Part shown: positions 7,167 through 61,852 of the stretch, in pieces | Layout: each line of letters opens with the position of its first letter | How positions within the stretch are numbered: position 1 is the stretch's first letter | Made by a program: the position numbers and the translations under genes | Source: Couchioplanes caeruleus | GTDB lineage: Bacteria; Actinomycetota; Actinomycetes; Mycobacteriales; Micromonosporaceae | Length of the DNA stretch: 64,000 nucleotides | Direction: 5' to 3' | NCBI RefSeq assembly: GCF_003751945.1 | Contig: NZ_RJKL01000001.1 | Location: forward strand, 6,262,001 to 6,326,000 | Notes under the pieces: generated by a model | Seen by the model: the letters and a program-made list of their open reading frames with translations, nothing else | What the model was told of the DNA's origin: nothing | The model's database searches: none

Positions 7167-8120
7167 CTACTGCGGGGTCGTCGCGGTGAACTCCCGCTCC
7201 GGCTCGTCGGACCGCTGCCGGGATGCGGACGCCGCCACCGCCGCCGACGCGTGTGCCTTGGCCAGGGCCACCGGGAACGCGCGGGTCGCCTGCCAGAGGC
7301 GCACGATCAGCCACAGCTCGAAGAAGAGCAGCAGGGCGCCGACGACCGCGGAGGTCTGGAGCACCCAGCCGGTCAGCGGGCCGATGATGAACACCGCCAT
7401 CTCGAACTCGATGCCGCTGATCAGGTGCGTACGGATCCGACGGGACTGCAGCGAGTGCCGCAGGCGGGCGCGGGGCCCGTGCGGCACGACCGTGGGGTCC
7501 TCGACGACGGGTGCCGGCGCGAATCCGCGGGCCTCCGCGAGCTGCTCCCGCATCGTCTGCCGGATGCGACCCATCTGGTGCGCGTTCACGTAGCGGAAGA
7601 GGTCCAGGAAGGTCACCGCGATCAGCGCCCACAGGTACGCCTTCGAGCCGGTCCTCGCGTACTGGCCGCCGAACAGTGCGACCGCGCAGAGGAAGGCGCG
7701 GAGGCGGTCGAACATGAAGTCGAACCAGGCGCCGAACATCGATCCTGTGCCGTGGAGTCTCGCGATCTTGCCGTCCATGCAGTCGACCACGAAGCTGACG
7801 TGGAACAGGAGCGCGCCCGCGACCAGCCACCAGCGATCCTGCATCAGGAAGCACGCGGCCGCGCCGAAGCCCAGCAGCGTGGCCAGGCCCGTGAGCAGGT
7901 TCGGCGTGATCCATCGGTACGGCGAGACGAGCCGCACCAGCCGGGCTGCCACCGGATCGACGAGCAGCACCGTCCACCACGCGTCCCGCGCCTTGTAGGT
8001 CTGCTCGCGAATATCCTGCAGCGATGAGCGTTGCACCATAACCCCAATCAACGCATCGGCCCCGTACCGGAAACTGCTTATGTCCGATTTGTGACGTGAT
8101 GGCGCGGTGGGTTTTTCCAC
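7167..8120 (-). CDS. CDP-alcohol phosphatidyltransferase family membrane protein
   Basis: The full family signature D-x2-DG-x2-AR-x8-G-x3-D-x3-D is visible as DCMDGKIARLHGTGSMFGAWFDFMFD, about residues 113-138 of 317. The four aspartates bind the Mg and diphosphate of a CDP-linked donor. Several hydrophobic helices surround it (LLTGLATLLGFGAAACFLM, WLVAGALLFHVSFVV, FIIGPLTGWVLQTSAVVGALLLFF). The enzyme moves a phospho-alcohol group in lipid or polyol-phosphate synthesis, and the acceptor cannot be told. The N-terminus is uncertain: a second ATG at MVQRSSLQ would shorten it by 27 residues. Confidence 0.88.
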   Translation of the reverse strand: MEKPTAPSRHKSDISSFRYGADALIGVMVQRSSLQDIREQTYKARDAWWTVLLVDPVAARLVRLVSPYRWITPNLLTGLATLLGFGAAACFLMQDRWWLVAGALLFHVSFVVDCMDGKIARLHGTGSMFGAWFDFMFDRLRAFLCAVALFGGQYARTGSKAYLWALIAVTFLDLFRYVNAHQMGRIRQTMREQLAEARGFAPAPVVEDPTVVPHGPRARLRHSLQSRRIRTHLISGIEFEMAVFIIGPLTGWVLQTSAVVGALLLFFELWLIVRLWQATRAFPVALAKAHASAAVAASASRQRSDEPEREFTATTPQ

Positions 8121-36986: not shown

Positions 36987-36992
36987 CTGAGC

Positions 36993-37039
36993 TGGTGGGC
37001 GATACTGGGATCGAACCAGTGACCTCTTCCGTGTCAACT
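36993..37039 (-). other. 3' fragment of a tRNA-Val(GAC) gene; probable att site
   Basis: Read on the minus strand, the sequence runs TTGACACGGAAGAGGTCACT and then GGTTCGATCCCAGTATCGCCCACCA. This is the anticodon loop (GAC), 3' anticodon stem, variable loop, T arm with GGTTCGATCC, 3' acceptor strand and encoded CCA of tRNA-Val. The 5' half is missing: where CTTCC should pair with GGAAG the sequence reads CTAGT. A break in the anticodon loop is the usual crossover point of tRNA-directed integrases, and an integrase relic lies next to it. Confidence 0.8.
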
Positions 37040-48582: not shown

Positions 48583-48906
48583 TCACGGAGTAATACCGCC
48601 AGCTTCGTCGGGCTCCGTTGGTTCTGACTGCTCGATGAACCGGTGACCTTCTGCGAGCAGGTCTTGCTGTTCCTCTGCTGTGAGTGTCTGGTATCGCTGC
48701 CAGAAGGTGTCGAACTGATCTGCGAGAGCCTCGCTGTAGATCGAGCTTGAGGCGGCGTCTCGAAGCGAGAGGTCGCCTTTGCGGACGCCGGACGCCATCT
48801 CGCGAAGTACGGCGTTGGGTCCGTCGGCAATCGAGGCGAGTAGCCGGTCGATGGCGCGGGCGCGGTAGGAGTCGCCGCCGGCCATGTCGAGGATTTCGGG
48901 GTTCAT
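48583..48906 (-). CDS. Hypothetical helical protein coupled to the T7SS-like gene
   Basis: The start MNPEILDMAGGDSYRARAID gives 107 residues and overlaps the upstream gene stop by four bases (ATGA). The sequence is helical throughout (LLASIADGPNAVLREMASGVRKGDLSLRDAASSSIYSEALADQFDTFWQRYQTLTAEEQQDLLAEGHRFIEQ). Last genes of WXG100-type operons often encode such small helical partners. A chaperone or immunity role is possible but unproven. Confidence 0.7.
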   Translation of the reverse strand: MNPEILDMAGGDSYRARAIDRLLASIADGPNAVLREMASGVRKGDLSLRDAASSSIYSEALADQFDTFWQRYQTLTAEEQQDLLAEGHRFIEQSEPTEPDEAGGITP

Positions 48907-49997
48907 GCGGCCACCTCTGCTACCGGGTGCTGGTAGCCGGTACCGCCGGGCAGGGTAGGCAGGGTGATGGTGTCGAGGTCGTTCAGCGCCGATCCGAGTT
49001 TGGCTCGGAAGCCGGCGACGGCCGCGCCGGCGAGCTGGTAGAGCTCGGTTGCCTTGCCCCACAGGTTGAGCAGGTTGACGACTTCGAGGCCGGCGACCCC
49101 GTATCCGGCGACGGCACCCACGCCGGTCCACGACGTGGCAGTGCCCGCGGCGGCGGCGATGCCCGCGATGATGGCAGCGTCGACCATGCCTTTGATGATG
49201 CCGCCGAGGGCCTCACCGGCTGCCCAGACCGCGTCGGCCAAGGCTGTGTATTCGGTGGCCATCTGCTGCAGCGGCTCTTGCAGGGCGACGATGCCGGTGG
49301 ACAGGTCGGTGAAGTAGTCGTACGCGGCGTCGCCGGCGTTGCCCTGCCACAGCGGGCGCAACGTGGTGGCGCCGGATTGGATATTGAGGGCCAGGTCGTG
49401 CAGGGCGGCGCTGGTGTTGCTGAGAACGGGTGCCATCGTCGCTACGGCTTCCCAGTCGCCGGAGAACCGTTCCTGGAGCCAGCTGATCGGGTCGAAGCCC
49501 AGGACGATGTCGAAACCCTTCATGGCCCACGAGGTCGGGCTGAGGTAGTCCATGAACCCGAGCGAGTTCGACGGATTCTCCGGCTCCGGTGGCGCGGTGA
49601 GACGATCGGTCACCTGTCGCGGGTCGGTGAACGGGACCGGTTTGCACACGATCGCGTTGAACTCGTACTCCAGCGGCGTCTGGCACTGCCCGAGCGCGGT
49701 CGGCAGGGACGCGTCGACGACGGCCGCGGCTTGGTGATCGGTGGCGAGGTAGTACCGAGCCGCTGCCGTGAGCTCGGGATGAGAGGCGCGGACGGTTGCG
49801 TCCAGGCGGGTCAGCGTGGCGTTCACCGTGGTGATCGCCTACTGGTGGCTGCCCGAGGCGATCTGGATCAGTTCGCCACCGGTCACCTCTTTGGCATGAG
49901 TGGCCACATAACCCTTGATGGCGGTCATGTCCTCGGCCGCGCCTTCGAGCTGCTTCGCGTATCCGGTCAGCGCTGCCGGCTCCACCGTCAGCGCCAT
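48903..49997 (-). pseudogene. WXG100/T7SS-type substrate interrupted by an in-frame TAG
   Basis: One continuous frame of 365 codons begins at the ATG at 49997 (MALTVEPAALTGYAKQLEGA) and ends at 48903, broken only by TAG at 49839-49841 after IASGSHQ. The sense continues directly behind it (AITTVNATLTRLDATVRASHPELTAAARYYLATDHQAAAVVDA), as one helical WXG100-like domain would. A GTG at 49826 could restart translation to give 307 residues. The second domain (DPISWLQERFSGDWEAV to WQGNAGDAAYDYF) and a glycine/alanine-rich helical tail match T7SS substrates. Its start overlaps the stop of the upstream membrane gene by one base. Confidence 0.75.
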
Positions 49998-50425: not shown

Positions 50426-51427
50426 TTAGGTCGGTGGTTGTGGGTGCCAGGGCTCGACGCCGGCCGGGCGGAGGTCGACGCGGACGCGCAGGTGTCGCAC
50501 GGCGTGGCGGAATCGTCCGTGTTCGTAGGCCTGGTCGACGACGATTTCGGCCACGAGCAGCGGTTGGACCTGAACGTACTGCTGCGCTTCGCGCTGGTCG
50601 AGCTGGCCCAGCCAGCTGGGAGGCAGCGGGTGTGGCCACGGGTGATTGTCGGCAGCCCGGATCAGGAGTCGGGCGGCTTCCTGGCGTTGGCTGGGCCTGA
50701 GCGGGGTGGTCTGAGCGGCGTAGCGCAGTCGGTTGCGGTCGTCGAGGCGGCCGAGCAACAGGGTGCGGGGGGCCTCGATGGAGCCGGTCACGCCGGCGAT
50801 GATGGCTTCGACCGTGGTCCGGCGTTTGTACTTCCATCAGCCGGGCCGGCCGGGTTGGTAGCGGCTGGCGAGGTCCTTGACGACCAGGCCCTCGACGCCG
50901 GTTACGGCGAGCTCGTCGAACCAGGTCCGAGCCATTGCCACGTCGGTGGTGTGGGGGCACAGCGCGACCGCGGGCGGCGCGGCGGCCAGCAGTCGTTCGA
51001 GCCGGGCGCGGCGTTCCTGCAGCGGCTGACCCGTCAGATCGGTTCCGGCGTCGGCGAGCACGTCGAACACCACCAAGGTGGCGGGACGGGCCGCGGCCCT
51101 CCGAAGGAGCTGGTGGCCGGCGATGACACGGGCGAGTAGATCCGTAAATGACGTTCGGCCGGTCACCGTGTCAAAGACGATCAGCTCGCCGTCGAGGACC
51201 GTGCCGGGCGCGACGGATTTATGCAGTGCGGCGGCGATGTCGGGGAAGTACGGGGTGAGGTTCTTGGCCTGGCGACTCTGTAGGTAGATGCCCGAGTCGT
51301 CGATGAAGGCGAGGCTGCGGAAGCCGTCGAACTTCGGTTCGTATGCGCACCCGCCGCGGCACATTGTGGGCTCGGGTAACTCGGTGACGCCCACCGCTCG
51401 CATCGGCTCGACCGGTGGTCTGAACAC
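50426..51427 (-). pseudogene. ATP-dependent DNA ligase with an in-frame TGA
   Basis: The adenylation domain is intact from the start to TGA at 50837-50839: the nucleotide-binding Lys lies in YEPKFDGFRSL, motifs III and IV in VLDGELIVFD and GVEGLVVKDLASRY. The stop falls after YQPGRPG, where ligases continue with a W or K-rich strand. The same frame then reads WKYKRRTTVEAIIAGVTGSIEAPRTLLLG and the rest of an OB-fold domain (LPPSWLGQLDQREAQQYVQVQPLLVAEIVVDQAYEHGRFRHAVRHLRVRVDLRP) to a stop at 50426. A single TGG to TGA change explains the break. The truncated form would lack the C-terminal DNA-binding OB domain. Confidence 0.8.
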
Positions 51428-52192: not shown

Positions 52193-52996
52193 TCACCCAC
52201 GGTCACAATTGACTCCAACCGTTTGAGTGTCGGAAGTCGGCTCCCGAAGCGGCTCAAGCGGTAGTTCGTACACGAGTAGGTGAGCTGATCCGTCGAGCAC
52301 GATTTCGTGCACCTCAATGCAGCGGCCGGCTTCGTCATAGGTGTGGCGTGTGATCTCGGCAACTGGTGTGCCGGGGCTCAAGCTAAGGGCGTCGCGCTCA
52401 GCGGTATCTGGCATTCGGCAGCGTACGGTCTCACGGCTGCGCACGGGTTGGTGACGTCGATCGGCGTTCCTGCCATCCGCTGCGTGGCGGTCCGCGAAGG
52501 CGCAGGACCCGACGACGCTGGCTCCGCGGTCATGCGGGTACCAGCTTGTAGCCAGGCGCACGGTGCGGCCGTCGGTCGTAACGCGGCGGTGGTGGCGAAG
52601 GGCTGGGTCGCCGTTGTTCAGGCTCAAAGCGGCTACCACGGTCGGCGGCGGTGATAGGTCAAGGTCGACATCGAGGGTTGTCTCGGTGTCGCTGTTGGTG
52701 TGAACCGCATGGGGATCGTCGGGGCTGACAAGATTATGTCTGACTATCGGATTGAATCCGCGCACATAAGCTCCAGCGCCAACCCTGGTGATTAAGAGTC
52801 CTTCGGCCACAAGCGCCGCCACGGCCTTTTGCACTGTCTGGCGGGTGACCGTGTAGCGTGCCATCAGTTGGGACTGCGACGGTATGCGGTCACCCTCGTT
52901 GAGGCGCCCCGATTTGATATCCACACGGATATCATCAACAATCGCCATATAGCGAACACGATCTTCTCTGCTGTTCCTCATCTTTCCCTGGTTCAT
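52193..52996 (-). CDS. GntR/HutC-family regulator next to the RiPP genes
   Basis: The 267-residue protein has an N-terminal GntR winged helix (MAIVDDIRVDIKSGRLNEGDRIPSQSQLMARYTVTRQTVQKAVAALVAEGLLITRVGAGAYV). A UTRA/HutC ligand domain follows (PALRHHRRVTTDGRTVRLATSWYP ... AERDALSLSPGTPVAEITRHTYDEAGRCIEVHEIVLDGSAHLLVYELPL). Between these, about residues 156-195, the sequence (RGASVVGSCAFADRHAADGRNADRRHQPVRSRE) is unlike other UTRA domains and may reflect a pair of compensating frameshifts. It lies 56 bp downstream of the radical SAM gene on the same strand and may be the last gene of that operon. Confidence 0.75.
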   Translation of the reverse strand: MNQGKMRNSREDRVRYMAIVDDIRVDIKSGRLNEGDRIPSQSQLMARYTVTRQTVQKAVAALVAEGLLITRVGAGAYVRGFNPIVRHNLVSPDDPHAVHTNSDTETTLDVDLDLSPPPTVVAALSLNNGDPALRHHRRVTTDGRTVRLATSWYPHDRGASVVGSCAFADRHAADGRNADRRHQPVRSRETVRCRMPDTAERDALSLSPGTPVAEITRHTYDEAGRCIEVHEIVLDGSAHLLVYELPLEPLREPTSDTQTVGVNCDRG

Positions 52997-53051
52997 TGAT
53001 CACCGGATACAAGGATTCGAGCTGCCGCAGGTGCGGCTCACGTCCATGTGT

Positions 53052-54179
53052 CTATAGGTGCCCGTTCTCTACGAGTGTGTTTTGTACGTGACGATAGAGG
53101 TACAGCAGGTCTGCACAATAGATGGTCTTACGGGAGAACCCGTCTTCCTCGCTGTATCGAGTAGATATCCGCCCTGCGCCGCAGCTGTCAAGAAACGGAC
53201 AAGCTTGACACTCGTTCGGCAGGATTGAGGATGTGTCGGTGCAGTATTGAAAGAATTCGTGCTCGTAGAGGTCGTCGAAGGAGTTGTGAAAGATGGAGAG
53301 GCCGAGGTCGGTAAGCCGGTCGGTGCAGGACTTGAAGTTGTCGGTCGGTTCGATTGATCCGTCCGTCTCGATGACGGCTACCTGTACGGGCGCGTTGCCG
53401 ACCTGGTCGGTCGAAGGGGCTTGGCCAAGCATTCCTTTCATGATTTCGACGAAGTAGCGGATACGTACTTCATCGTTGTTCTCTGCGACCCACGCGTCGA
53501 AGATCTCGGCGAAGAATCTCCCGTACGGCGTTTCCGGGTTGTCGAAGGTGAACTCGTACGGCGGGTGGGCATAGTTTCCCTCGGGCAAGAGGAAATTGAG
53601 GTTGCCAACACCGAGCTCGCGGAGGTGTTTGTAGGCTACGTCTCCGGATAGCGTGGGGTCCACGACGCTTACCACGCCCACCTGGAGACCCTTATCAGCC
53701 CAGGTCAGAGCCTTCTGGAGCCCTCGGACGGCGCGATCGTAGCTGCCTTTGCCGGCATGGTCGACGCGAAAGCGGTCATGCGCAATCTTGGGGCCGTCGA
53801 TGCTGAAACCGAGGCGTGTACGCCACTGCGAGAGTAGTTCCCCCCACCCGTCATCGAACATAACGCCGTTGGTTTGCATCTTTCTTAGGGTTCGGATGCC
53901 TGCTTGGTCAACGCGATCGAACTGTTCCATCATCCACCGGCAGTCCTCCTTGGGCTGCAGGAGGGGCTCTCCGCCATGAAAGGTGATTTCGATATTGTCT
54001 ACACCGCGACGTAGGCAATGATCAATCATCTTGGGAATCGCGGCTTCGACCACCGAGCGGTCCATGTATTTAGGACGATTCATAAAGGAGGTGTCGGCGC
54101 CGTTGTAGTAGTAGCAGTAGGAACAGTTCAGGTTGCACCACGAAACCGTCTTGATGATGTAGGTATCAATTCCCGGCAT
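53052..54179 (-). CDS. Radical SAM/SPASM peptide maturase
   Basis: The 375-residue enzyme has the SAM-cluster motif CNLNCSYCYYYN with Cys15, Cys19 and Cys22. A typical core follows (DNIEITFHGGEPLLQPKEDCRWMMEQF, RKMQTNGVMFDDGWGELLSQW, RLGFSIDGPKIAHDRFRV). The C-terminal SPASM-type cysteines for auxiliary 4Fe-4S clusters include FKSCTDR, QYCTD, ECQACPFLDSC and IYCADL. Such enzymes install C-C or thioether crosslinks in ribosomally made peptides. A 25-residue precursor gene lies directly upstream. The aromatic-rich precursor tail suggests a cyclophane-forming enzyme, but this is inference. Confidence 0.92.
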   Translation of the reverse strand: MPGIDTYIIKTVSWCNLNCSYCYYYNGADTSFMNRPKYMDRSVVEAAIPKMIDHCLRRGVDNIEITFHGGEPLLQPKEDCRWMMEQFDRVDQAGIRTLRKMQTNGVMFDDGWGELLSQWRTRLGFSIDGPKIAHDRFRVDHAGKGSYDRAVRGLQKALTWADKGLQVGVVSVVDPTLSGDVAYKHLRELGVGNLNFLLPEGNYAHPPYEFTFDNPETPYGRFFAEIFDAWVAENNDEVRIRYFVEIMKGMLGQAPSTDQVGNAPVQVAVIETDGSIEPTDNFKSCTDRLTDLGLSIFHNSFDDLYEHEFFQYCTDTSSILPNECQACPFLDSCGAGRISTRYSEEDGFSRKTIYCADLLYLYRHVQNTLVENGHL

Positions 54180-54230
54180 GATTGTCAGCCACCACTCTCT
54201 CGCTATCCGGTCGGTTGAATGGTAAAACCG

Positions 54231-54272
54231 AACCCTCCGCCCCGGGCAAAAGGCAGCCCAGGGCGGAGGGTT
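54231..54272 (-). terminator. Hairpin between precursor and maturase genes
   Basis: AACCCTCCGCCC (54231-54242) and GGGCGGAGGGTT (54261-54272) pair perfectly over 12 bp around an 18-base loop. The hairpin lies between the precursor stop and the radical SAM start, without a long T-run. A partial terminator here would give more precursor than enzyme transcript, a common feature of RiPP operons. Confidence 0.6.
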
Positions 54273-54286
54273 TCACGGGTTTGAAA

Positions 54287-54364
54287 TCAGGACGCGAAAG
54301 CCCAGGCAGTGATGGTCTTCTCGGCAACCCGAGCTTCCTTGACAGCCTTGTTGAGAACAGCCAT
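54287..54364 (-). CDS. Putative RiPP precursor peptide (25 residues)
   Basis: The ATG is preceded by GGAGG at a normal spacing and encodes a 25-residue peptide starting MAVLNKAVKEAR and ending ITAWAFAS. It was found by reading the gap upstream of the radical SAM gene and is too short for standard gene callers. The N-terminal part is a charged amphipathic helix suited to leader recognition. The C-terminal tail holds Trp and Phe and ends Phe-Ala-Ser, resembling the aromatic-x-Ser motifs crosslinked by cyclophane-forming SPASM enzymes. A near-consensus promoter lies upstream. The modification is inferred. Confidence 0.75.
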   Translation of the reverse strand: MAVLNKAVKEARVAEKTITAWAFAS

Positions 54365-54426
54365 GGTGCACCTCCGTGAAAGGGTTTCCTTTGTCCGATC
54401 GGCTTGTCCCGATCGCTAAGCAAAAC

Positions 54427-54454
54427 CTTATAAGGACGTTCTCGTTGGTGTCAA
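54427..54454 (-). promoter_or_regulatory. Promoter of the RiPP operon
   Basis: Read on the minus strand, TTGACA (54454-54449) and TATAAG (54432-54427) are 16 bases apart, 60-90 bp before the precursor start. This is close to the vegetative sigma consensus and unusually good for a high-GC genome. CCTTATAAGG overlapping the -10 is a 10-bp palindrome, and its CCTTAT half matches the arms of the operator before the ArsR-type gene. Confidence 0.7.
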
Positions 54455-54469
54455 CGCATCGAGGGAAGC

Positions 54470-54960
54470 GCATGCGCCAGCACCTTGGGTGAAGACTAGT
54501 TACATGCTCAGGTTCGGGGCCTGGAATGCGATTACTCCCTGTTTCGAGAATGAGGACGACGGCGCGATCTGAACGACTTTCGAGCCGCTTGGCGATGGGC
54601 CTTCAGGGGGATGGTGCGACCATCCGCAGCACGTTGCGAGCCATACCGTGAGCAGGGTATTTGCCTTGATCAATTAGCGAGAGTGGCATGTTTCCGGGCT
54701 TTCGGCGTCAATCCGTGCTGGCAGTAAACTCGACTACACGTGGTGACAGGTCAGTCAGCAGGACCTGAGGATCGACGCCTCCTCCGATCGGACGGCCTGT
54801 CGCGAGGGCGACAGACAATGCGGCAACCCGGAGGGTGTGCAGGAGGGCGGCCGCTGCGGACGCCCTGGTCTTCGACGGGCTGATCGGCGGCCAGCGGGGA
54901 GACGGTGCTGGATGACGCGTTAGGCGTGATTGCCGGCAGTTTCCGCTACGCGGGCAGACC
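54470..54960. other. Gene-poor stretch between the RiPP genes and the NACHT relic
   Basis: No convincing gene is present. A 22-codon plus-strand frame at 54504-54572 lacks a good ribosome binding site. The right part (about 54770-54960) may be an eroded N-terminal section of the NACHT relic that follows, but no frame is long enough to support this. Confidence 0.35.
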
Positions 54961-54974
54961 GAGGCCCCGCTGCC

Positions 54975-55250
54975 CGGACAGGCCAGCACGATCATTCGGG
55001 AGATCGTGCCTGCATTCCGGGCTCTGCCGCGCCAACCGTGGGCGGTGCTCGGCGAGCCGGCTTCGGGCAGTAGCGTCTTCGCGCTGGAAATCGGGCTGAT
55101 CGGCACTGGGATGACAGCGGGGAGCAACTGCTGTGCTGTTGGCGATCAACGTGTGGGATCCCAACAAGCCGTGGACGGACTCATGGCCCGCTGGCTGGCC
55201 AGGACTACGCCGATGCGCCCGCCGCCATCCGCGGTCGGTGGTCGAGTGTC
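54975..55250 (+). pseudogene. Decayed NACHT/STAND ATPase fragment
   Basis: One frame reads GQASTIIREIVPAFRALPRQ and then PWAVLGEPASGSSVFALEIGLIGTG, which matches the start of NACHT domains, where the P-loop is GEPGSGKS. Here the catalytic Lys is replaced by Ser (GEPASGSS). After a frameshift the next NACHT block appears as VLLAINVWDPNKPWTD, and after another WLARTT. Frameshifts, the lost P-loop lysine and the absence of the rest of the protein mark it as a relic. Confidence 0.6.
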
Positions 55251-55388
55251 TGGTAAAGCACTAGCTGGTGTCGCCGATACCGGAGACGGACCTTCCGCCG
55301 GAGTGCTAAGCCCCTGGCGGGATCCCCTGTCCATAAGGTTTGCACTGGTCAACCGTTTGTCTATACCGGGGTAGACGACAATCCGACA

Positions 55389-55414
55389 CCCTGATAAGGT
55401 CCCCCTTATCGGGG
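55389..55414. promoter_or_regulatory. Operator palindrome before the ArsR-type gene
   Basis: CCCTGATAAGG (55389-55399) and CCTTATCGGGG (55404-55414) form an inverted repeat with one mismatch around TCCC, 36 bp before the ArsR-type gene start. The CCTTAT/ATAAGG half-site recurs in the CCTTATAAGG overlapping the -10 of the RiPP promoter. Autoregulation by the downstream regulator is the simplest reading. Confidence 0.65.
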
Positions 55415-55449
55415 CCGACCTCAGTCGACCAACATCCCAGGGGCCTGCT

Positions 55450-56016
55450 ATGCCTGCACAGAGTTATGTTCCTCAGGCGCAACTTGAAATCACTACCAGT
55501 GAACAGATATCGGCCTTTTCTCATGCCACCCGACAGAAGATTCTGAGGGTACTAGTGCAGCGTCCCTGCACAAACAAGCAGGTTGCCGACGCGTTGGGCG
55601 AAACTCCTCCACGCATCTATCACCACATTCGCGAACTGGAGCGAGCGGGTCTCATTAAACTAGTGTATACCGCCCCCCACGGCAGCGTTATTGAGAAGTA
55701 TTACGCAGCAGTGGCGCTGAGATTTAAGTTGGTCGCCGACTTCTCCGCCATGCCAGAGCAGGCCGCAGTGGCCTCATCGGCGTTGGTCGCTGCAGAAGAA
55801 GACCTGCAAACCGCAGTCACGCAACATCCAAATCAGCATGTGCACATCAGGATTCTGCATGAAAGTACCTGGCTCAACCCCGACGAGCGCCGCACGGTCG
55901 AAGACTTGATCGGCCAGCTCGGCGAGATCATGCAAAAATCCATCCAGTCAGGCCCACAGCATAGTAATGCGAAGCCCTTGAGTCTGCTCGTGCTGGCACA
56001 CTACCCGGCCGATTGA
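55450..56016 (+). CDS. ArsR-type winged-helix regulator
   Basis: The 188-residue protein has an N-terminal winged helix (ISAFSHATRQKILRVLVQRPCTNKQVADALGETPPRIYHHIRELERAGLIKLVYTAPHGSVIEKYY). The C-terminal half (about residues 95-188) is helical without metal-binding cysteines, so a small-molecule or peptide signal is more likely than a metal. It lies 27 bp before an MFS transporter gene with which it forms an operon behind a palindromic operator. It probably controls the exporter and perhaps the RiPP operon. Confidence 0.85.
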   Translation: MPAQSYVPQAQLEITTSEQISAFSHATRQKILRVLVQRPCTNKQVADALGETPPRIYHHIRELERAGLIKLVYTAPHGSVIEKYYAAVALRFKLVADFSAMPEQAAVASSALVAAEEDLQTAVTQHPNQHVHIRILHESTWLNPDERRTVEDLIGQLGEIMQKSIQSGPQHSNAKPLSLLVLAHYPAD

Positions 56017-56043
56017 ATCGGCTCACCAAAAGGAGCAAGCGGT

Positions 56044-57276
56044 ATGAGTGTGGCCCAATCGGTTTCAGGCCGATTAAGGCAGGCAACCGGACCGTTACAC
56101 GGAAACTGGCGCTTCTCCACAGTCTGGTTCGGGCAGGCGCTTAGCTGCTTCGGTGATCCACTGCAGCGCATCGCGATCGTCTACATCATCCTGTCCCAGT
56201 ACGGCGACCCTCTACTGCTCAGCCAGGTAGTGGTGGCTTTCGCCGTGCCCTCCGCCCTAGCCGCGCTGTTTGGCGGCGTCATATCCGACCGGTACAGCCC
56301 TCGCCGCGTTATGTTCTGGTCTGATATCGTCCGTGCGCTCTCCGCCGCCGCGCTGGCAGTACTTGCCGCTACCAACGGCTCTACCACCCTGATCACTATT
56401 GTCCTAGCGATCGCCGGCACGGCGGGCGGCGCCTTCTTGCCTGCTAGCCGCTCGGTTGTTACGAGCCTGGTCGATAGCAACAACCTGCAATCAGCTAACT
56501 CTCTGATGCAGATCAACCCCCAACTCGCCATGTTCATCGGAGCTCCGGTCGGAACTCTCATCGTTGCTGCCTACGGTCCCTCCACAGCGCTGATAATCAA
56601 CGCCGTTTCGTTCATCATCTCCGCCATCTCCTGCCTCGCCATACCACGCATGACGGCCAGCATTGCCGCGTCGGGCCAGCGGATCATGAGTGAAGCTTGG
56701 GATGGAATTCGTTACCTCGCTCGTCACGGTGCTTTAACTGTGTTAGTGGTCATGGATATGGTCATTGACTTCGCCACCGCAGGCCAGCTCGCCGTGGGCC
56801 TGCCGATCCTGGCGCACGAAAGGGGCAACGCGGCCGATTTTGGCATCCTGCTCGGTGGTTTCGGCGCGGGTTCAATCCTCGGCCTGGTTCTCATGGCAGT
56901 CGTGCCTCCAATCAAACGCAGACGCGGCCTGCTGATCTGCTGGCTGCAGCTCGCCCAGGCTCCCTTGCTCGGCGCCATCGCCTTCACGGACATCGTTGTG
57001 TCCACGGCCCTACTGGCGCTAATGGCTGCACTGAACGGCGTAGCCTTGGTGTTGTATTTAGGCGTCATTCATGATTACACCGAGCCGCGTCTTCTTGGCC
57101 GAGTGATGGCTCTGACAGTTGTTGCGGGCCTATCGTTGCAACCCCTTGCGCAACTCGCTACTGGGTTCGCGGCCGAATTTGGCAACTCCGCACTACCCTT
57201 TATAGCCGGATCGCTCATCATGGCTATCGCAAGTGCGATCGCCCTGGGCTCGGCTCGTGTACGGAAGTTGGCCTGA
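56044..57276 (+). CDS. MFS transporter, probable exporter
   Basis: The 410-residue protein has about 12 membrane helices and the MFS layout of enterobactin-exporter/MefA-like proteins (FGQALSCFGDPLQRIAIVYIIL, GGVISDRYSPRRVMFWSDIVRALSAAALAVLA with the loop-2/3 motif DRYSPRR). AGGAGC precedes the ATG. It follows the ArsR-type gene closely and faces the RiPP operon, so export of the modified peptide is a reasonable role. Substrate is not shown by sequence. Confidence 0.9.
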   Translation: MSVAQSVSGRLRQATGPLHGNWRFSTVWFGQALSCFGDPLQRIAIVYIILSQYGDPLLLSQVVVAFAVPSALAALFGGVISDRYSPRRVMFWSDIVRALSAAALAVLAATNGSTTLITIVLAIAGTAGGAFLPASRSVVTSLVDSNNLQSANSLMQINPQLAMFIGAPVGTLIVAAYGPSTALIINAVSFIISAISCLAIPRMTASIAASGQRIMSEAWDGIRYLARHGALTVLVVMDMVIDFATAGQLAVGLPILAHERGNAADFGILLGGFGAGSILGLVLMAVVPPIKRRRGLLICWLQLAQAPLLGAIAFTDIVVSTALLALMAALNGVALVLYLGVIHDYTEPRLLGRVMALTVVAGLSLQPLAQLATGFAAEFGNSALPFIAGSLIMAIASAIALGSARVRKLA

Positions 57277-57517: not shown

Positions 57518-58615
57518 CTATAACCGGCAGAGCGGGACGTCGTCGTAGGCGAGGTCGCCGGCTGCGGCTCGGATGAGCTTCGGTTCGTAGGTGCGCAGCC
57601 CAGCTACCTCGCCTAGCCTGCGGAGGCTTGTGAGTGTGGCGCCGCGTTCGACCGCTCGGAGGCGATGTGCAGTTATCCGGTCTTGAAGTTCAGTGGCGGT
57701 GGGTGCACGGTAGGCGGTTCGTGTGAGTGTCGCGGCTTTGCGGCGTTCGTGGTCGAGTTCAGTTCGTCCGCAGATTTCTCGGGTCGCGTGTTCTGCCTCG
57801 GTGAACGATCGGGAGCCGGCGAGCGCCTGGGCGACCTGATTGATGGCGAGGACAGCGCGGCAGTCCGCTAGTAGGAGATCAGCGCTGGCGGCGTCGAGTG
57901 GGACAAGTGCCGCGCTGTCGCGGATCTCGGCTTGCCCTTCGATTCCGAGTGCTGCCGCGGAGAGCAAGGCGGTTGCCTCGGATGGGTGTCGGTCGAGGAC
58001 GGAGACGTACGCCTTGACGTCGGGTGAGGTTACTCGGCGATTGGTTGCGCCCGCTCTCGCCATCCTTGCGCGTACGTAGTCACCAGAGAGTTCTCCGTCG
58101 AGTCCCGGGCCGCCGACGACCACCTGTCCAGGAAGGGAAAGGCCGGCTACCGCAGCCAGGGCTAGGGAGTCGGCAAGCGGGCTGGACAGTTCTGGTTCCA
58201 GTCCGCTCGCGGCGATGTCGCCGCCGACGTCGACCAGGGTCACAGATGAGGCTGACGCTAACGCGGCCAGGTCGGCGAGCTGCTCCCGGATGCCGTCGGC
58301 GCCGCGTGAGGGGTCGAGGAGGAAGAATCGCCCCTCGGTGTGTTGCGCGAGAATCGCTAGACCAGAGATTCCGCCTGTGCGCAGTTGGCTTGTCGCAGTT
58401 ACTTCCCAGACATGCCGGGTGTGCTGAACCAGGCCCTCGAAGTCTTGGATTGTCCTAGGGCCCGGTGTCGGGTCGAGGATGTATCGGTCCCACGAGAAGC
58501 TGGCGACTATCTGCTCGGACGACCCGGGGTTCAGAACACGATCGGCGATCAATGCCGCCAGGGCGTCGCCTCCGCCGCCTGCTGCGACGGACAGTGTCGT
58601 AGTCACTGGTCCCAC
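57518..58615 (-). CDS. DUF1152 family protein
   Basis: The 365-residue protein starts with VAAGGGGDALAALIADRV, the glycine-rich nucleotide-binding-like turn of DUF1152. SRGADGIREQLADLAALASASSVTLVDVGGDIAASGLEPELSSPLADSLALAAVAGLSLPGQVVVGGPGLDGELS is the family core. A C-terminal Arg-rich helical tail follows. The biochemical role is unknown. It is divergent from the GntR gene, with a candidate operator in the 70-bp gap. Confidence 0.85.
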   Translation of the reverse strand: MGPVTTTLSVAAGGGGDALAALIADRVLNPGSSEQIVASFSWDRYILDPTPGPRTIQDFEGLVQHTRHVWEVTATSQLRTGGISGLAILAQHTEGRFFLLDPSRGADGIREQLADLAALASASSVTLVDVGGDIAASGLEPELSSPLADSLALAAVAGLSLPGQVVVGGPGLDGELSGDYVRARMARAGATNRRVTSPDVKAYVSVLDRHPSEATALLSAAALGIEGQAEIRDSAALVPLDAASADLLLADCRAVLAINQVAQALAGSRSFTEAEHATREICGRTELDHERRKAATLTRTAYRAPTATELQDRITAHRLRAVERGATLTSLRRLGEVAGLRTYEPKLIRAAAGDLAYDDVPLCRL

Positions 58616-58653: not shown

Positions 58654-58685
58654 AAGAGGCGATATCTACCAGATTGCGTATTTCT

Positions 58686-59438
58686 GTGCCTGAGATCAAA
58701 GTCGTTCTTCCGAAGTACCTCCAGATCGCGGGACATATCCGTGATCAGATCCTTCGAGGTGACCTTCAACCGGGCGATGAGGTGGACAGCGAGCGCAAGA
58801 TCGCCGAAGTCTGGAAGGTGGCTCGGCCCACTGCGACCCGCGCGCTGGACACCCTCCGGCGGGAAGGGCTCATCGAATCACAGCAAGGATCAGGCACACG
58901 GGTACGCGACGTTCGCACCCATCGGCGTGCCTCGCATCGGTACCACCGCTACCTTGCTCAAGGCGCGCAATACGCCCAAGACGAGTCGATGGAACTCCTC
59001 GGCGTGGGGATCGTAGACGCGCCCGGCCATGTGGCAGAGGCACTGAATCTGGCTCGACCGGCCCGCGTGATGACGCGGCACCGGCTGATCTCCCGCGAGG
59101 GCGTCGGGCCGGTGGAGATCTCGACATCATGGTGGCCTGCATCCTTGGCAGAGCATGCCCCTCGACTGTTAGAGCCGGCTTCGCTCGGGGGAATCGGAAG
59201 CGTCCGCTACGTCGAGTCGGCGACAGGCAGGAAAGCGTCATATGCCCGCGACCAGGTCTCTGCCCGGCTAGCGACGACTCAAGAAGCGGAGCTCCTTCAG
59301 CTAAGCGACGCTCCGGCCGCGGTCCTCGCCTACCGGCACACGGTGTACGACTCGGCGGATCAGATCTTGGAGTTCGCTGAGGCGGTCTACCCACCAGGCG
59401 TGTGGAGCCTCGAACAGGAGTACCCCATCGAGGCCTGA
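58686..59438 (+). CDS. GntR-family repressor (KorSA-like)
   Basis: A start at GTG 58686 gives 250 residues (VPEIKVVLPKYLQIAGHIRDQILRGDLQPGDEVDSERKIAEVWKVARPTATRALDTLRREGLIESQQGSGTRV is the winged helix); a TTG four codons upstream is also possible. A UTRA domain follows (RVMTRHRLISREGVGPVEISTSWWPASLAEHAPRLLEPASLGGIGSVRYVESATGRKASYARDQVSARLATTQEAELL). GntR repressors of this type hold AICE transfer and replication genes silent. It precedes the transfer operon and is divergent from the DUF1152 gene. Confidence 0.85.
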   Translation: MPEIKVVLPKYLQIAGHIRDQILRGDLQPGDEVDSERKIAEVWKVARPTATRALDTLRREGLIESQQGSGTRVRDVRTHRRASHRYHRYLAQGAQYAQDESMELLGVGIVDAPGHVAEALNLARPARVMTRHRLISREGVGPVEISTSWWPASLAEHAPRLLEPASLGGIGSVRYVESATGRKASYARDQVSARLATTQEAELLQLSDAPAAVLAYRHTVYDSADQILEFAEAVYPPGVWSLEQEYPIEA

Positions 59439-59475
59439 AATGTCGGAAGACCCTGCTACCCGAGCTCTAAACAAA

Positions 59476-59512
59476 GTGGCATAGTCCACCATCCAGTAAG
59501 TGGTATAGTCCA
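59476..59512 (+). promoter_or_regulatory. Direct-repeat operator and promoter of the transfer operon
   Basis: GTGGCATAGTCCA (59476-59488) and GTGGTATAGTCCA (59500-59512) are direct repeats 24 bp apart in a lower-GC gap. Each contains TATAGT or CATAGT, which could serve as -10. They end 27 bp before the GTG start of the next gene. They are the best candidate binding sites for the GntR protein encoded just upstream. Confidence 0.6.
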
Positions 59513-59538
59513 GTTACTAGATGAAGGAGGTGAGCACC

Positions 59539-60405
59539 GTGAAAGGGAGGTTGTTCGACCGTTCGTCCGTCGGTGCGGTAGCGATCGTGGAGCCACCGGT
59601 GTCGCAGTGGTATGCCCGGCGTGCCGGAACTGCGGCTCTGGTCGTGGGTCTGGCGTCAGACGCGTTGGTGACGGCGGTGTTGAGCGTGTTCTGCCCGCTG
59701 CTGCTAGCGGTGGTGCTGGGCGCGCTGACCGGTCTCGTGTGCGCGTTAGTCGCGGCGGTGTTGGTGCGAGTCTGGCCGGTGCTGCGGGTGCTGTGGTGGT
59801 GGTCGATCGAGAGCACGGCTGCGGTAGTCGTGGTCGGTGGCTGGGTCGCGCTGGCGCACTTGAGTTCCTGGTGGATCGCTTCGGCGGTTCTGCTCGCGGT
59901 CGCTGCTGGGGTGCTGGCACCGGTCCGGGTGCGCCGGTTCGTGTGGGCGTGGTGGTGGTGTCTGGTGGTGCGTCACCGGCTGCGGTTGTACTTCGCCACG
60001 CTTGTACGCAGTGCCGCGCGTTCCGGTGGTTCGCGTCCGGTGACGTTGCCGCTGTTGTTGTGGGCGCGGCCGACGCCTGCGGGTGAGCGCGTGTGGCTGT
60101 GGCTTCGTCCCGGCCTTGCGCTGGAGGCCCTGGAGGGCAAGGCGCCGCTGATCGCGGTGGCGTGTATCGCCAAGCAAGTCCGTATTACGGCCGCGTCGGA
60201 GCGGTACGCCGCGCTGTTGCGGGTCGACATCGCCCGCCGGGATCCGCTGGCGGGGCGGGTGGAGTCGCCGTTGGCGCTACTGATCCCGAGCCTGCGCGAC
60301 ACCGACGCGGACGTGCCGGTGTCGCCGGCGATGCCGCCGGTCGGCCTTGAGCTGGCCGACATCGAAGACCCGGCACCCGAACCGCCGCGTGGTGGTCGCC
60401 GATGA
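59539..60405 (+). CDS. AICE membrane protein
   Basis: GAAGGAGGTGA (59523-59533) is a near-perfect ribosome binding site placed for the GTG at 59539, not for the in-frame ATG at 59521 that overlaps it, giving 288 residues. Four hydrophobic segments lie in residues 25-135 (TAALVVGLASDALVTAVLSVFCPLLLAVVLGALTGLVCALVAAVLVRVW; TAAVVVVGGWVALAHLSSWWIASAVLLAVAAGVLAPV). A cytoplasmic domain follows with WLWLRPGLALEALEGKAPLIAVACIAKQVRI. Proteins of this layout precede the FtsK-like gene in many actinomycete elements and may help DNA spread or transfer. Confidence 0.75.
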   Translation: MKGRLFDRSSVGAVAIVEPPVSQWYARRAGTAALVVGLASDALVTAVLSVFCPLLLAVVLGALTGLVCALVAAVLVRVWPVLRVLWWWSIESTAAVVVVGGWVALAHLSSWWIASAVLLAVAAGVLAPVRVRRFVWAWWWCLVVRHRLRLYFATLVRSAARSGGSRPVTLPLLLWARPTPAGERVWLWLRPGLALEALEGKAPLIAVACIAKQVRITAASERYAALLRVDIARRDPLAGRVESPLALLIPSLRDTDADVPVSPAMPPVGLELADIEDPAPEPPRGGRR

Positions 60406-60467
60406 CCTCCCGCGTCCGGGTGCCTGCGCAAGTGCAGTGGCAAGCCATCACCGACAAGGAGAACTGA
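60402..60467 (+). CDS. Possible tiny coupled ORF
   Basis: A 21-residue frame ([21 protein letters not shown]) starts in an ATGA overlap with the membrane protein stop and ends one base before the SSB start. Its AAGGAGAA near the end serves as the SSB ribosome binding site. It may couple translation of the SSB gene to that of the membrane protein rather than encode a functional peptide. Confidence 0.35.
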
Positions 60468-60468
60468 G

Positions 60469-60924
60469 ATGGCGAACGAAACCACGATCACCATGGTCGG
60501 CAACCTCACCGCCGACCCCGAACTGCGGTTCCTGCCGAATGGCACCGCGATGGTGAAGTTCACCATCGCGTCCACGCCGCGCACCCTCGACCGTCAGTCG
60601 GGCGAGTGGAAGGACGGCGACCCGCTGTTCCTGACCTGCACCGGCTGGCGCGACCTGGCCGAGCACATCGCCGAGTCGCTGACCAAGGGCACCCGGGTCA
60701 TCGTCACCGGCCGTCTGAAGCTGTCGCGGTGGGAGGACAAAGAAACCAAGGAGAAGCGCTCGGCGTACGGCCTGGACGTCGATGAGATCGGCCCGAGCCT
60801 GCGCTTTGCTCAGGCCAAGGTGCAGCGGATGAACCGCAGCAGCAAGAACGATGGGTTCATCCCCGACGCGCCGCAGGACGACGCCTGGAGCATCGCCGCT
60901 CCGGCTTCGGCGTCGGCGGCCTGA
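60469..60924 (+). CDS. ssb: Single-stranded DNA-binding protein of the element
   Basis: The 151-residue protein has a standard OB fold ([103 protein letters not shown]). It ends with an acidic-poor tail [13 protein letters not shown] rather than the DDDIPF-type tip of housekeeping SSBs. It probably covers single strands during element replication or transfer. AAGGAG precedes the ATG. Confidence 0.9.
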
Positions 60925-60934
60925 GGGCTGAGCT

Positions 60935-61852
60935 GTGCCACCCGTCCTCGCTGCGAACACCACACTGGGGCCGGTCAAGCCCGGCCTGCCCCTGTCAATC
61001 TTCGACCCGATCCCGATCGGGATCGACGAGTTCGGCATGCAGGTACTGATCCGGCTGATCTGGCGCAACCTGCTGATCGGCGGCGAGCCCGGCGCGGGCA
61101 AGTCGGCGCTGCTGAACGTACTCGTCGCCTACGCGGCGCTGTGCCTGAACTGCAAGCTGATCCTGCTGGACGGCAAGCAGGTCGAACTCGGCCAGTGGCG
61201 CAAATGCGCCGACGCGTTCGTCGGCCCGAACATCGTCCAAGCACTGGTCCTGCTGACCAAGTTGCAGAAGATGATGGACAACCGGTACGCGTTCCTGCTC
61301 GACTGCGAACGCCGCAAGGTCGTCGAGAAGATCCAGACCCTCTCACCGATCACCGGGGAGATCATCTGGGTACCGGACGCGTTCCTGCCCTACGTGGTCG
61401 CGATCGACGAGATCGCCTACTACTCAGCCACGACCGGGGACAAGAAGCAGCGCGAAGAGTTCGCCGCGCTGCTGCGCGACCTGGTCGCCCGGGGCCGGGC
61501 GGTCGGCATCATCGTCATCGCCGCCACCCAACGCCCATCCTCGGACATCATCCCGACGTCGCTGCGGGACCTGTTCGCGTGGCGCTTCGCCGGGCGCTGC
61601 ACCAACGACAGCAGCTCGGACATCGTCCTCGGGCACGGCTGGGCGCAGAAGAACTGGTCGGCCAACTCGATCAGTCCTAACAACCCCGGCGCGGGGCTGC
61701 TCATCGCCGAAGGCGGCAGCCCGCAGCTCGTGAAGACCGCCTACCTGGATGACCGCACCTGCGCGGCCATCGCCGCCCACGCGGCTTCCTTGCGCGCCAC
61801 CGTCACCGCCGCCGACCGTCGCGCGTTGCGGGCGGTCCCCGCCGCGGCCTGA
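60935..61852 (+). CDS. FtsK/SpoIIIE-type DNA translocase (TraSA/TraB-like)
   Basis: The 305-residue ATPase has Walker A GGEPGAGKSALL (Lys56, residues 49-60) and Walker B in FLPYVVAIDEIAYY. Downstream motifs are VARGRAVGIIVIAATQRPSSDIIPTSLRDLFAWRFAGRCTNDSSSDIVLG. It matches the short FtsK-like transfer proteins that move double-stranded DNA between mycelial cells in AICEs. There is no N-terminal membrane domain; the upstream membrane protein may supply it. A GTG start ten bases after the SSB stop fits the operon. Confidence 0.92.
   Translation: MPPVLAANTTLGPVKPGLPLSIFDPIPIGIDEFGMQVLIRLIWRNLLIGGEPGAGKSALLNVLVAYAALCLNCKLILLDGKQVELGQWRKCADAFVGPNIVQALVLLTKLQKMMDNRYAFLLDCERRKVVEKIQTLSPITGEIIWVPDAFLPYVVAIDEIAYYSATTGDKKQREEFAALLRDLVARGRAVGIIVIAATQRPSSDIIPTSLRDLFAWRFAGRCTNDSSSDIVLGHGWAQKNWSANSISPNNPGAGLLIAEGGSPQLVKTAYLDDRTCAAIAAHAASLRATVTAADRRALRAVPAAA

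Follow-up and report, generated by a model that had tools for sequence, protein, structure and literature searches.

The 64,000-nucleotide stretch of Couchioplanes caeruleus DNA analysed here (the window) carries what we read as a small module for a ribosomally synthesized and post-translationally modified peptide (RiPP). It would consist of a precursor peptide, a cyclophane-type radical S-adenosylmethionine (SAM) enzyme and a protein of the major facilitator superfamily (MFS), and be carried by a pSAM2-type element. We put the probability of this reading, which is based on sequence comparison, at about 0.8. Because the same peptide motif and exporter gene recur in other actinobacteria, and the module lies on a mobile element, the peptide-enzyme pair with its motif and exporter very probably represents a genuine family of modified peptides that has no name so far. 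The genes concerned are the following:

54287 to 54364, minus strand: precursor peptide gene of 25 codons, encoding the 25 amino acids MAVLNKAVKEARVAEKTITAWAFAS; relatives with the same motif lie upstream of the maturases of its clade
53052 to 54179, minus strand: radical SAM peptide maturase, 375 amino acids, of an unnamed subfamily near FxsB, YhhB and ChlB
56044 to 57276, plus strand: putative MFS exporter, 410 amino acids, counterpart of the MFS gene found 3' of the maturase elsewhere

The original prediction, made from the letters of the window, had described a 25-codon gene with a GGAGG sequence and a Trp- and Phe-containing tail ending in FAS, upstream of the maturase gene, and each of these features was found. 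GGAGG is located 6 nt 5' of the ATG of the peptide gene, whose stop codon is 107 nt away from the maturase start. The DNA of the maturase clade could be read in five genomes: the window's own, Arthrobacter sp. MI7-26 (L004/L110), a second Arthrobacter genome (L093/L109), Microbacterium mangrovi (L005/L111) and a genome of the Arthrobacter family (L092/L108). A tiny open reading frame (ORF) immediately precedes the maturase gene in all five, as the prediction of an upstream gene with a conserved aromatic motif beside homologous maturases would have it. They encode four distinct peptides of 23 to 28 residues, as MEIITKALGESNDKITAWAFSSE is the precursor of both Arthrobacter genomes, while MSVIEKALEEQPTITAWSFSTDPH and MSVLEMAMNSADDQVITAWAFSTDPIKP belong to the remaining two. 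The strict motif ITAW[AS]F[AS][ST] is common to the four distinct peptides and occurs within 500 nt 5' of 4/4 distinct clade maturases; seven columns (M1, A7, I18, T19, A20, W21 and F23) are invariant.

Between the peptide gene and the maturase gene lies a further feature:

54231 to 54272, minus strand: GC-rich hairpin, z -5.6, terminator-like in a scan in which shuffled sequences gave 1.1 on average

A hairpin is present in this gap at all four distinct loci (z -5.6 in the window, -4.4, -2.0 and -4.7 elsewhere), and that of the window is a probable attenuator. Such an attenuator-like structure 3' of the ORF is what one would also see if the ORF were a chance one or encoded an attenuator leader peptide, the maturase acting on a protein elsewhere in the manner of an anaerobic sulfatase maturase, whose profile (TIGR03942) the window enzyme matches as well. 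That match reaches 176.4 bits against a cut-off of 349. In addition, the peptide motif is kept across actinobacterial families although most of the peptide differs, and a looser version of it was found within 500 nt upstream of 0/78 non-clade maturases and in 23 of 20,000 shuffled upstream stretches. We therefore regard a non-precursor ORF as highly improbable. A scan of whole loci returned a single loose motif match outside the clade, in L070, where it lies some 7 kb away from the maturase.

The maturase contains CNLNCSYC, and the cysteines of its radical SAM motif CxxxCxxC (C15, C19 and C22) are present in 35/35 rows covering them. In the SPASM part, aligned to anaerobic sulfatase maturase, C324, C327 and C333 are conserved in 37/37 members and C355 in 35/36, and two Cys positions of the sulfatase maturase are replaced, by T279 in 37/37 and by R337 in 35/36 rows with a residue there. 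If the SPASM cysteines belong to the individual auxiliary clusters as we presume, C324, C327, C333 and C355 serve one auxiliary cluster, instead of the two of a canonical SPASM domain. The earlier description of a radical SAM protein of 375 residues thus held, whereas that of its SPASM cysteines held for one cluster only. In profile searches the window maturase failed to reach the cut-off of any of the 25 families listed out of 59. The best match among those listed was YhhB (NF041707; 283.9 bits, cut-off 445), and the best of the 37 members reached E 1.3e-94 with this profile (reckoned at about 318 bits) and E 9.6e-93 with that of FxsB (about 312 bits).

The window maturase shares with the FxsB family (TIGR04269) a full-length match of 275.4 bits and F-x-[ST] in 4/4 distinct precursors. 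It differs in remaining below the curated cut-off of 370 and in an extra invariant Trp two residues before the Phe. FxsB precursors presumably end in FxSxx-COOH, an ending absent from the clade, whose four tails are FAS, FSSE, FSTDPH and FSTDPIKP; MscB, the enzyme of a Phe-Ser cyclophane, we take to be an FxsB family member. Like DarE and DynA, the clade shows profile matches (26/37 members with the darobactin and 37/37 with the dynobactin profile) and, if darobactin is spaced as we assume, a pair of aromatic residues two positions apart (i and i+2) plus a further partner at i+4. Unlike them, the clade has a single Trp and a core without Lys, and the window maturase scores far under the cut-offs (68.6 of 650 and 128.5 of 450). 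According to the available text of PMC11002830, MscB makes a Phe-Ser link, the crosslinks of YhhB join Arg to Tyr and to His, and XncB and OscB make use of Trp; in contrast to what YhhB modifies, the four peptides lack Tyr and have His solely as the last residue of one. ChlB, a multiple cyclophane synthase (PDB 9gm3, 9gmc), is 27-28% identical to the window maturase. In the part of PMC12636437 available, it is described as a radical SAM domain fused to an HExxH hydroxylase, with a product hydroxylated on His and Asp, whereas the window enzyme is free-standing and the window core contains neither His nor Asp.

By these tests the maturase is neither FxsB nor YhhB, and XyeB and ChlB are both distant from it. 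In profile, sequence and predicted fold its closest counterparts are cyclophane-forming enzymes, and the nearest crystal structure is that of a cyclophane enzyme. The module has a radical SAM motif, a relation to three-residue cyclophane-forming enzymes (3-CyFEs) in nearest profiles and fold, and a cognate precursor with a conserved aromatic-x-x motif (W-x-F-x-[ST] in 4/4 distinct precursors), as triceptide systems in the broad sense do. Enzyme fold and substrate pattern thus place the module in the broad three-residue-cyclophane group, and instead of the "undescribed precursor class" of the original prediction we would speak of an unnamed subfamily of the known cyclophane-forming group. A different modification, such as epimerisation, an ether link or a change at Trp only, would agree with scores under every listed cut-off, with the branch of 0.56 that carries the clade in a tree with 36 clade rows (L003 excluded) and with the auxiliary cluster that has lost its Cys. 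Since the nearest profiles and crystal structure are those of cyclophane enzymes, F-x-[ST] fits the Phe-Ser link of MscB, and the aligned ChlB sequence likewise lacks Cys at the PCD position, we consider this unlikely. The same genome encodes two more maturase relatives, 35% (L002, G000:C1:4752739-4753779) and 32% (L003, 4225277-4225921) identical; L002 clusters with other actinobacterial relatives in the tree.

For the cyclophane module we propose that the short N-terminal part, M-x-[VI]-[LI]-x-[KM]-A, would serve as recognition leader and the C-terminal I-T-A-W-x-F-x-[S/T] as core. The enzyme would generate a 5'-deoxyadenosyl radical and couple an aromatic ring with the beta carbon of the second residue after it, by analogy with MscB most likely Phe to Ser/Thr; the invariant Trp may be crosslinked too. 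A hairpin 3' of the precursor gene could keep the peptide in excess over the enzyme. As no protease gene was seen in the module, a host protease would take off the leader, and the MFS protein may export the product or protect the producer. A single ring, two separate rings or two fused rings may form. It is unlikely, and offered tentatively, that the W-x-F-x-[S/T] core is closed into a fused bicycle (Trp-Phe and Phe-Ser/Thr) of darobactin-like topology. A radical SAM clade other than that of darobactin would then build it in Gram-positive bacteria on a precursor of 23-28 residues, as an exchangeable module spread between lineages and carried by an integrative element.

Export by the MFS protein, as had been suggested, gained support from gene order. 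A Pfam-confirmed MFS gene lies directly 3' of the maturase gene in 4/4 other genomes, in the order peptide-maturase-MFS, whereas that of the window is divergent, behind an ArsR-type regulator gene. The window protein is 29-32% identical to three of those four over 362-402 aligned columns. Two Arthrobacter stretches of 18.7 and 19.0 kb have a single block of 3.4 kb in common (3394 columns at 94.5%), which starts just inside the ArsR-type gene, runs through the peptide and maturase genes and stops shortly before the MFS gene ends. On both flanks identity drops to about 0.4, so that the limits of the module are sharply marked.

The module is cargo of an integrative and conjugative element of the pSAM2 type, as judged from its genes and ends. 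The element extends from window position 36991 to 64000 and on to position 11119 of L114, about 32.1 kb in all, at tRNA-Val(gac), and is bounded by a perfect 47-bp repeat:

36991 to 37037, no strand: left attachment site, 47 bp identical to L114 11073-11119 (69073-69119 on the window scale), holding the tRNA-Val 3' end
58674 to 61852, plus strand: element backbone in the window, with GntR/UTRA regulator (58674-59438), single-stranded DNA-binding protein (SSB; 60469-60924) and FtsK/SpoIIIE-type transfer ATPase (60935-61852)

RepSA, an excisionase-like protein (HTH_17, 25.4 bits, slightly below the cut-off of 27) and, next to the tRNA gene, a tyrosine integrase follow in L114. These three, the FtsK-type ATPase, the GntR regulators and the attachment repeat at the tRNA 3' end are shared with pSAM2-type actinomycete integrative and conjugative elements (AICEs); the RiPP module sets this element apart from them. 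Two GntR/UTRA regulators lie between the attachment repeats together with the module, and the G+C content is 0.713 in window positions 1-36990 versus 0.588 in 53052-57276. A literature search for AICEs with RiPP cargo turned up no such case in titles and abstract openings, which proves little.

Regulators and candidate control sites of the module are the following:

54427 to 54454, minus strand: promoter-like site of the peptide gene, TTGACA (54449-54454)-16-TATAAG (54427-54432)
54426 to 54435, no strand: CCTTATAAGG palindrome over the -10 element, candidate operator, from a site search allowing at most one mismatch
55389 to 55414, no strand: candidate operator 5' of the ArsR-type gene, an inverted repeat CCCTGATAAGG/CCTTATCGGGG containing a second CCTTATAAGG-like site
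55450 to 56016, plus strand: ArsR-type (HTH_20/HTH_5) regulator, 188 amino acids
52193 to 52996, minus strand: GntR/UTRA regulator, 55 nt after the maturase gene, with no relative near the other four loci

The near-consensus promoter previously noted is present as a sequence, and a strict promoter scan listed none for the peptide gene because its rule demands T at the -10 end. With at most one mismatch, CCTTATAAGG occurs at two sites only in the 64 kb, at the peptide promoter and, inside an 11-bp inverted repeat, before the ArsR-type gene (0.18 expected; two or more sites for 1/100 shuffles), the pattern having been picked after both sites had been seen. The two are candidates for a shared operator linking the divergent halves, and the ArsR-type protein might repress both promoters through these CCT[TG]ATAAGG sites. 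The Arthrobacter ArsR-type gene has at its start a perfect inverted repeat of 15 bp, TAGATTCCTTTGCAA/TTGCAAAGGAATCTA (L110 14166-14203), which is likely an operator, its sequence unlike that of the window. The GntR gene noted earlier 3' of the maturase and the ArsR-type and MFS genes opposite were all confirmed. The GntR regulator had been listed with the locus; in tblastn the window protein gave no match at E 0.01 in the 18-19 kb surrounding each of the other four loci, and it probably does not belong to the module.

Several observations weigh against parts of our reading. In the Arthrobacter pair the gap 3' of the peptide gene (82/82 identical) is as conserved as the gene itself (72/72), so this pair is no proof of coding selection. 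The comparison covers four distinct peptides, and the readable genomes in the tree all fall within a subclade of 22/36 rows, with the 14 outermost rows (for example Thermomicrobiales and Lentibacillus) lying outside it. One of the hairpins is weak, with 7/200 shuffles folding equally well, and an earlier operator pattern with a 3-nt gap gave no match. An ArsR-type gene is divergent and adjacent in 3/5 genomes only, two of those being near copies, and the window protein resembles those others in the DNA-binding part only (31% over 87 amino acids). In Microbacterium it lies on the same strand, two genes upstream, with an AHSA1 gene between, and a LysR gene adjoins the fifth locus (L092/L108). 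This inconstancy also speaks against the idea of a signalling role for the modified peptide, in which the module would be a circuit for peptide sensing or self-regulation and not an antibiotic maker. The very short peptide, the ArsR-type regulator with its candidate shared operator and the four-gene Arthrobacter block, in which no other immunity gene was seen, would suit a signal, whereas the constant partner is the MFS gene, as expected for export or self-protection; we consider the idea possible, if doubtful.

A single-sequence scan of genome contigs confirmed no maturase relatives; an alignment scan confirmed 153, of which 80 were kept, two of them clade loci. At E 1e-90, 0/66 congeners carried a clade gene. 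Whole-genome searches at strict cut-offs gave 1/67 for the genus and 1/200 for the family of the window (its own each time) and 0/392 for a large genus that we take to be Streptomyces. They further gave 2/295 (family) and 2/131 (genus) around the Arthrobacter genome, with one shared, 1/4 around the third clade genome and 1/299 around Microbacterium. A phylum sample (n=396) contained the window's own gene and five non-clade matches, and a sample around an Anaerolineae genome (n=210) that genome alone, outside the clade. Plasmid records yielded 14 matches at E 1e-40, the best with 36.8% identity. Carriage by phages or viruses was considered and rejected: phage records gave no match at E 1e-20, and viral contigs contained 14 distant partial relatives (best E 1e-16). 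In the non-clade Anaerolineae outgroup L012, an ORF upstream of the maturase (7759-7953) encodes 64 residues ending in QLFSLHVKI, a different motif, and is perhaps another unnamed precursor.

The system is compact, with a peptide, one enzyme and one exporter. As neither its substrate motif nor its enzyme clade belongs to any of the named cyclophane families tested in NCBIfam, the product may be chemically new and of a type, the stapled peptides, that is much sought after. Gene callers easily overlook precursors of such small size, and the protein database search used could not handle peptides of this length, so further loci of this type may have escaped notice; carriage by an AICE is one route for the spread of such modules. 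A literature search did not show this peptide motif, which the SPECO and triceptide landscape surveys cited in PMC11002830 may list.

Other genes were noted around the module. A DUF1152 protein adjoins it (57518-58615, minus strand; 244 bits). Inside the element, a 196-amino-acid ORF (50837-51427, minus strand) best matches the domain of ATP-dependent DNA ligases (PF01068, 109 bits) and is perhaps a ligase fragment, and a 307-amino-acid protein (48903-49826, minus strand) shows a weak WXG100 match just below the gathering score.

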